This document shows positions 36,321 to 36,662 of a stretch of 43,614 nucleotides of DNA, in pieces. Positions within the stretch are counted from its first letter, which is position 1. Each line of letters opens with the position of its first letter. The stretch is from NCBI GenBank assembly GCA_017439555.1, contig JAFSIZ010000118.1, positions 1 through 43,614 on the forward strand. Reading direction: 5' to 3'. The position numbers and the translations under genes were made by a program. A model generated the notes under the pieces. That model did not search any database. It was not told the origin of the DNA and was given only the letters and a program-made list of their open reading frames with translations. This stretch comes from Oscillospiraceae bacterium. GTDB lineage: Bacteria; Bacillota; Clostridia; Oscillospirales; JAAYXM01.

Positions 36321-36338
36321 GAGTTCGAATCTCTCCTT
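36321..36338 (+). repeat. Inverted 18-base copy of the tRNA-Ser 3' part
   Basis: GAGTTCGAATCTCTCCTT here is identical to the T-arm/acceptor part of the tRNA-Ser gene, which reads on the opposite strand at 36579-36596. Flanking bases (GCG before, TC after) also partly match. Such fragments usually mark an integrase attachment site or a decayed tRNA copy. Confidence 0.6.
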
Positions 36339-36357: not shown

Positions 36358-36532
36358 CAAGGCGCAAGCCTTGTATATCATCAATTCCGCAGGAATTGCA
36401 TATCATTAACACGAAGTGTTGTATATCATCAAGCCGACGAAGATACACACCTGCGGTGTGATGATATGCAGCCCGAAGGGCTGATGAGATACACGCTGAC
36501 GCGTGATGATATGCCAAGCCTTGTCGGCTTGG
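36358..36532. repeat. Array of short hairpins with conserved linkers
   Basis: Hairpins: CAAGGC-GCAA-GCCTTG (36358-36373), AATTCC-GCA-GGAATT (36383-36397), AACAC-GAA-GTGTT (36408-36420), CACACC-TGC-GGTGTG (36446-36460), CAGCCC-GAA-GGGCTG (36469-36483), CACGC-TGAC-GCGTG (36492-36505) and CCAAGCC-TTGTC-GGCTTGG (36514-36532). Linkers are TATATCATC or its complement-like ATGATATG. One unit (36431-36445) looks degraded. Stems differ completely in sequence while pairing is kept. No protein-coding frame fits. Confidence 0.8.
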
Positions 36533-36538
36533 ATAAAC

Positions 36539-36568
36539 AAAAAGCACTTGCAAATGCAAGTGCTTTTT
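36539..36568 (-). terminator. Terminator of tRNA-Ser
   Basis: A perfect 14-base stem AAAAAGCACTTGCA/TGCAAGTGCTTTTT lies directly past the tRNA 3' end on the minus strand. Confidence 0.8.
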
Positions 36569-36570
36569 GT

Positions 36571-36662
36571 TGGCGGAGAAGGAGAGATTCGAACTCTCGC
36601 ACCGCTTTCGCGACCTACGCCCTTAGCAGGGGCGCCTCTTCGACCTGCTTGAGTACTTCTCC
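36571..36662 (-). tRNA. tRNA-Ser (GCU anticodon)
   Basis: This is a 92-base class II tRNA. The acceptor GGAGAAG pairs with CTTCTCC, followed by discriminator G and an encoded CCA. The anticodon stem CGCCC/GGGCG encloses the loop CTGCTAA with anticodon GCT. A long variable arm (TAGGTCGCGAAAGCGGTGC) and T-arm GAGAGTTCGAATCTCTC are present. Confidence 0.95.

Follow-up and report, generated by a model that had tools for sequence, protein, structure and literature searches.

REP doublets forming hairpins (REPINs) exist as many palindromic copies whose evolution is tied to that of one partner gene, itself present in a single copy (PMC3116915). The intervening sequences (IVSs) of 23S rRNA are associated with stable RNA genes, have inverted-sequence borders and a patchy distribution, and a mobile origin has been proposed for them (PMC4990558). 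Genes of the family PF05635 are common beside diversity-generating retroelements (DGRs) (PMC10053308). The element considered here, an array of seven different short hairpins at 36358-36532, lies beside a tRNA-Ser gene in a contig of an Oscillospiraceae bacterium (JAFSIZ010000118.1, positions 1 to 43,614; this whole stretch of 43,614 nt is called the window). With a probability of roughly 0.6, this array is the non-coding, conserved head piece of a family of dispersed and probably mobile elements. Members of the family are placed after tRNA genes or other terminators, and a complete member would include a gene encoding a four-helix-bundle (FHB) protein of PF05635; the window copy would be a solo one. 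The family has a fixed bipartite plan, pairing in its stems and between two separated units, a preferred place behind tRNA genes and an FHB gene behind some copies. Its near-invariant linkers are inverted between the two arms, parallel arrays precede other FHB subfamilies, and linkers and FHBs have co-diversified. From these features we infer that the family is mobile and that the FHB binds the linkers on folded DNA.

The array itself is confirmed. The seven hairpins are perfect and do not overlap, with stems of 5-7 bp and loops of 3-5 nt, whereas dinucleotide shuffles of 36358-36532 contain 0.98 on average (maximum 5 in 500 shuffles) and the other 247 segments of that length (175 nt) along the 43.6-kb window contain 1.1 (maximum 4). 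The original prediction of seven short hairpins joined by near-constant linkers thus describes a real structure. The linker of the left half is TATATCATC and that of the right half is its reverse complement, GATGATAT. Hairpin H1 (CAAGGC GCAA GCCTTG, 36358-36373; hairpin scan and family alignment) forms the far end of the element, with the flank TTGATT on the minus strand. It is followed by the linker TATATCAT(C) at 36374-36381, whose columns are invariant in the family alignment; by H2 (CAATTCC GCA GGAATTG, 36382-36398), the most conserved unit of the family by alignment, covariation and hairpin scan; and by the linker CATATCATT (36399-36407), H3 (AACAC GAA GTGTT, 36408-36420) and the linker GTATATCAT(C) (36421-36429). 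Between the third and fourth hairpins stands an eighth unit, the half-hairpin I (CAAGCCGACG, 36430-36439), which matches one arm and the loop of the last hairpin, T. Its only partner is T, with which pairing is possible: minus-strand GTCGGCTTG pairs with CAAGCCGAC of T, an assignment that rests on covariation between the two. The right half consists of H4 (CACACC TGC GGTGTG, 36446-36460), the inverted linker ATGATATG (36461-36468), H5 (CAGCCC GAA GGGCTG, 36469-36483), an inverted linker that is a variant within the family (ATGAGATA, 36484-36491), H6 (CACGC TGAC GCGTG, 36492-36505), a further ATGATATG (36506-36513) and T itself (CCAAGCC TTGTC GGCTTGG, 36514-36532; alignment, covariation and pairing with I). 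H3 to H6 were located by the hairpin scan and the linkers by the family alignment. T adjoins the A/T tract of a perfect-palindrome intrinsic terminator (36536-36570), which belongs to the minus-strand tRNA-Ser(GCT) gene in front of the element (36571-36662).

How widespread is this arrangement? A scan of 84,980 genomes with the two-linker pattern matched at least 120 genome stretches, and among the matches listed nearly all are metagenome-assembled genomes of Clostridia/Oscillospiraceae. Within the order of the window the pattern occurs in 41 of 295 genomes and 27 of 148 genera, and a reversed control pattern in none. The array is therefore not unique, and the expectation that related arrays exist in other Clostridia is borne out. 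A total of 113 distinct elements, later 122, were parsed, and every element of the family is built on one plan with 6-8 different hairpins. Read in the sense of the tRNA, the T-tract of the terminator is followed by an ATCC-hairpin (T), at least two units of YATATCATC linker plus hairpin, the half-hairpin I, and about three units of GATGATATRC plus hairpin, of which the penultimate hairpin is nearly always AATTYC/GRAATT. The stems had been said to share nothing with one another; that is so within an array, but not between arrays, where H2 is nearly always AATTYCnnnGRAATT. The genome of the window has a second copy behind tRNA-Leu(TAG), identical in layout and with some hairpins in common. Copies within one genome are mostly 70-90% alike, and the ends of the element remain approximate, since the few copies that are more than 95% alike are short or stop at a contig edge. 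In congeners, the same tRNA-Ser and tRNA-Leu genes either lack an array or have one that keeps the plan but is built with a different linker (AATGATG, TGAAAT). In open-licence papers, no description of the linker text, of tRNA-associated hairpin repeats or of PF05635 in this connection was found; the repeat family of gut Clostridia to which the window array belongs is large and apparently undescribed.

The regular alternation of constant and variable segments resembles clustered regularly interspaced short palindromic repeats (CRISPR), but here what stays constant is a linker of 9 nt and what varies is a palindrome, and the two halves are inverted. The CRISPR format of identical 23-50 nt repeats with unique, non-palindromic spacers is absent from the array, which is indeed the reverse of CRISPR, as proposed from the sequence. 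REP elements and REPINs consist of a single 20-40 bp palindrome, tagged GTAG/CGTC, or of an inverted doublet of one conserved palindrome, and neither format is found in the array.

The stems are held together by compensatory change. Across 48 aligned elements, in which the stems of T, H5, H3, H2 and H1 provide 30 pairs, 95.8% of cells are paired, with double changes at 22 of the 30 pairs and 246 double-change cells. None of 500 shuffles reached these covariation values, and structures slid along the alignment had only 10-63 double-change cells. The pairing of the 5' half of T with I is even more complete in the same alignment (99.7% of cells paired, 62 double-change cells, 0 of 500 shuffles), and T and I are complementary with at most one mismatch in 10 in 105 of the 113 elements. 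Because the half-palindrome of T thus exists in three correlated copies, the pairing of T with its own second arm (T') and the pairing of T with I are mutually exclusive. That pairing itself has been selected or generated, as the original prediction had proposed, is clear from these values, and homologous arrays keep their pairing instead of drifting to unpaired states. The linkers behave otherwise. Left and right linkers do not covary, 25 of 48 rows being unpaired at one position, and the left linker often has a C without a match in the right one. A ladder of linker-linker pairs, attractive in the fold, was rejected on the ground that linker changes are uncompensated; the linkers are motif copies in two orientations rather than a helix.

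At which level does this pairing act? RNA structure is expected to favour G.U on the transcribed strand. In the unique stems, G.T mismatches are as frequent as A.C mismatches (22 versus 21), whereas the neighbouring terminators have 13 versus 4. This favours DNA folding or perfection by template switching, and suggests that the stems pair at the DNA level. When the unique stems are divided by arm, the ratio of G.T to A.C is 13:6 in the left and 4:10 in the right arm (p 0.04; counts that are small and not independent), a weak hint as if the TATATCATC-bearing strand folds in each arm. A cruciform or recombination substrate would be compatible with the data, and so would a contribution of template switching to the perfection of the stems.

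The same counts bear on the idea of a structured RNA, in which the tRNA transcript would read through beyond its terminator and the folded 3' extension would serve as a decoy, a sponge or a stability element, with T and I as an RNA switch. The array plus terminator folds strongly as RNA (z = -8 to -9 on either strand), and both the constant orientation behind tRNA genes and the covariation of T with I would be in keeping with such a role. However, the array lies beyond a strong terminator, about 98% of its pairs are Watson-Crick, which is unusually high for an RNA family, and Rfam gives no match at gathering score anywhere in the window, rRNA included. Since the stems favour G.U no more than A.C on either strand, the RNA decoy entertained earlier is not supported, and we regard a structured RNA as quite unlikely.

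Neutral template switching, by contrast, would account for the equality of G.T and A.C: quasi-palindromes would be perfected by mutation and spread by recombination between copies, with no function needed. Stems that are near-perfect on both strands, and free to vary as long as pairing is kept, are what such a process would produce. It leaves unexplained the constant linkers and the conserved H2, the three-way identity of T, T' and I over about 80-100 nt, and the presence of a cognate FHB gene and a preference for tRNA sites, and as a full account it is improbable.

The placement of the elements is as regular as their structure. A tRNA gene of the same orientation lies within 230 nt upstream of 67 of the 108 elements with sufficient upstream sequence, compared with 10 of 399 random windows. 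These tRNAs belong to 15 isotypes, and all but one are 30-46 nt from the element, a distance that corresponds to a terminator. Where two copies stand in tandem (L044, L062, L115 and L257), the second array also has a terminator in front of it, and no gene lies before that terminator. The terminator thus appears to move together with the array, and the perfect palindrome at 36536-36570 is probably element-borne as well. At L067, a copy of the 3' end of tRNA-Arg precedes the second array. At the opposite end, the last hairpin ends in TTGATT, and exactly 17 nt beyond it 41 of 109 elements have a box that resembles TATAAT with no more than one mismatch; no other spacing gives more than 7 elements. 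The genes behind the arrays vary and include FHBs, lipoproteins, Nudix proteins and transferases. This gene order is reminiscent of cassettes, which makes integron attC sites (RYYYAAC/GTTRRRY cores, served by an IntI integrase) a parallel to consider. At L010, L019, L052 and L258, and again at L018, L053 and L060, promoter and Shine-Dalgarno text behind the array are shared while different genes come after, as if the genes had been exchanged at the start codon.

Such a promoter could also mean that the array is an operator, its linkers being duplex sites through which the FHB represses the far-end promoter, with solo arrays remaining where the gene behind has been exchanged. The -10 box at its fixed distance from TTGATT, the FHB genes that begin directly behind the array and the co-diversification of linkers and FHBs would all fit. 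The operator leaves without explanation, however, why palindromes should separate the sites, why T and I covary and why the elements lie at tRNA genes, and in the window copy no -10 box stands 17 nt beyond TTGATT. An operator thus appears unlikely.

We return to the preferred reading, a probably mobile element with an FHB partner. A gene for an FHB of about 115 aa (PF05635/TIGR02436, 23S rRNA intervening-sequence protein) lies behind 17 of the 113 elements; behind the window copy there is no PF05635 open reading frame (ORF). The predicted structure (pLDDT 94) matches 2rld and 2gsc, and the DGR protein Avd at a TM of about 0.8. PF05635 occurs in 138 of the 295 sampled genomes of the order, and 60 of 153 PF05635 genes of the order are preceded by an array found de novo, in which 7-mer linkers are followed by their reverse complements, with more than 12 different linkers in all. 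Shuffled sequences gave none at the stricter score of 5; control ORFs (12 hits in 120) came from the same loci, so that some of these hits represent the arrays of the FHB genes themselves, picked up from an adjacent gene. Linker similarity tracks FHB identity (Mantel rho 0.41, p 0.001), and nearest FHB neighbours share a linker in 33 of 60 cases, against 9.8 by permutation. Across genomes, all 13 that carry the cognate FHB subfamily (at least 80% identity) are array-positive, compared with 41 of 295 overall (p 1e-12, uncorrected for genome relatedness), and this test is stronger than the correlation between linkers and FHBs. In one genome, G185, a single cognate FHB gene stands against numerous solo arrays. 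The original prediction contained neither the bipartite inverted plan nor the alternative pairing of T and I, the association with PF05635 or the other linker families. At L078, a further array of yet another plan (GATATCCGTTCC...GGAACGGATGATAT) lies beyond the FHB gene, which indicates that different array families can nest.

Several observations weigh against this reading. The correlation between linkers and FHBs could arise from physical linkage and co-inheritance alone. About two thirds of the array-positive genomes are without a cognate FHB of at least 80% identity, and in the genome of the window (assembly 84% complete) both of the two FHB genes belong to other subfamilies: one stands behind an array with GTGRTAT-like linkers and the other is followed by ATGATG hairpins. 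The two TATATCATC arrays of this genome therefore look like orphans. A recognised array with inverted linkers accompanies only about 40% of FHB genes, and in a second PF05635 class (L228, L244, L249, L233, L239, L302, L311 and L324) the place of the hairpin array upstream is taken by simple repeats rich in A and G (GAAAGTGGAAAGTGG, AAATGAGAAATTAG, ATTCATTATTCATT), with inverted copies often around the terminator. No exact pair of empty and filled sites was found, the terminators and flanks of tRNA-Ser and tRNA-Leu in congeners being too divergent, and we know of no catalytic activity for the FHB. In the same genome, an FHB gene at the start of contig C126 (L211:380-700) is followed by a tandem run of hairpins, GATGACGCTGACGCTGATGATG...GCAAATGATG, which share the ATGATG linker.

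How, then, does the family compare with the described systems? Like REPINs with their RAYT transposases, it consists of many short, palindromic, non-coding, dispersed copies with compensatory pairing, and a partner gene beside one copy co-diversifies with them. Here, however, the partner is a four-helix bundle and not a Y1 transposase, there are 6-8 differing hairpins, the conserved text is the linker, and two inverted arms with constant linkers lie behind tRNA terminators. By this analogy the family seems to work like REPIN-RAYT without being a member. With the 23S rRNA IVSs it has the PF05635 protein family in common, as well as the association with stable RNA genes, the inverted borders and the patchy distribution. 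The array elements differ in lying behind tRNA genes rather than inside a 23S rRNA helix, in being hairpin arrays and in having many solo copies, and excision by RNase III is not known for them. To our knowledge, neither the function of PF05635, which is also found in the 23S rRNA IVSs of pathogens, nor the route by which IVS elements spread is known.

A non-autonomous element could also be moved in trans, either by a reverse transcriptase, as in DGRs, or by a Y1/RAYT transposase, as in REPINs. The FHB folds like Avd, PF05635 genes are frequent neighbours of DGRs (PMC10053308), and REPINs, too, evolve together with one partner gene of which there is a single copy (PMC3116915). But unlike DGRs, most array carriers are without a reverse transcriptase: RVT_1 occurs in 3 of 27 array-rich genomes and was not found in the genome of the window. 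Y1_Tnp is not associated with arrays either (18 of 41 array-positive versus 92 of 254 array-negative genomes, p 0.39), was not found in the array-rich genomes G152, G165, G207 and G127, and has a single hit in the genome of the window, with an internal stop codon. The DGR and REPIN mechanisms are thus not applicable as such, and movement in trans by either enzyme, largely refuted by this absence from high-copy genomes, is very improbable.

The preferred reading of a mobile element with an FHB partner suggests a different sequence of events. The linker would be the recognition motif of an FHB oligomer, exposed as short single strands between the hairpins when a DNA strand folds, either on the lagging strand or in a cruciform. 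The alternative between the T hairpin and the T-I pairing might serve as a conformational switch, and FHB binding could enable copying to other tRNA flanks through replication or recombination functions of the host, while the far end would provide a -35 box for expression of the FHB or of a captured gene. Taken further, the family may be a new class of mobile element: a hairpin array of folded DNA, its linkers read by a cognate FHB of the IVS/Avd superfamily. Such an element would spread behind tRNA terminators while encoding neither a reverse transcriptase nor any recombinase or transposase, and captured genes would be carried downstream of its promoter. This is a tentative proposal, to which we give somewhat less than even odds; if it is true, the arrays are the first PF05635 substrate outside DGRs. 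Each FHB of the many co-diversifying pairs comes with its presumed binding site, which makes binding directly testable. The arrays also create many spurious protein annotations beside tRNAs. DNA that is selected for pairing while its sequence varies is a pattern overlooked by ordinary repeat finders, and Tandem Repeats Finder called no repeat at the array.

The surroundings of tRNA genes in these genomes hold other repeats as well. On the far side of the array, at 36321-36338, lies an inverted copy, 18 nt long, of the 3' portion of tRNA-Ser(GCT) (GAGTTCGAATCTCTCCTT, plus strand). Inverted copies of the tRNA T-arm, and also repeated tRNA 3' ends with their terminator, are found behind the tRNAs at L160, L178 and L168, and these copies look like another family of tRNA-flank elements.
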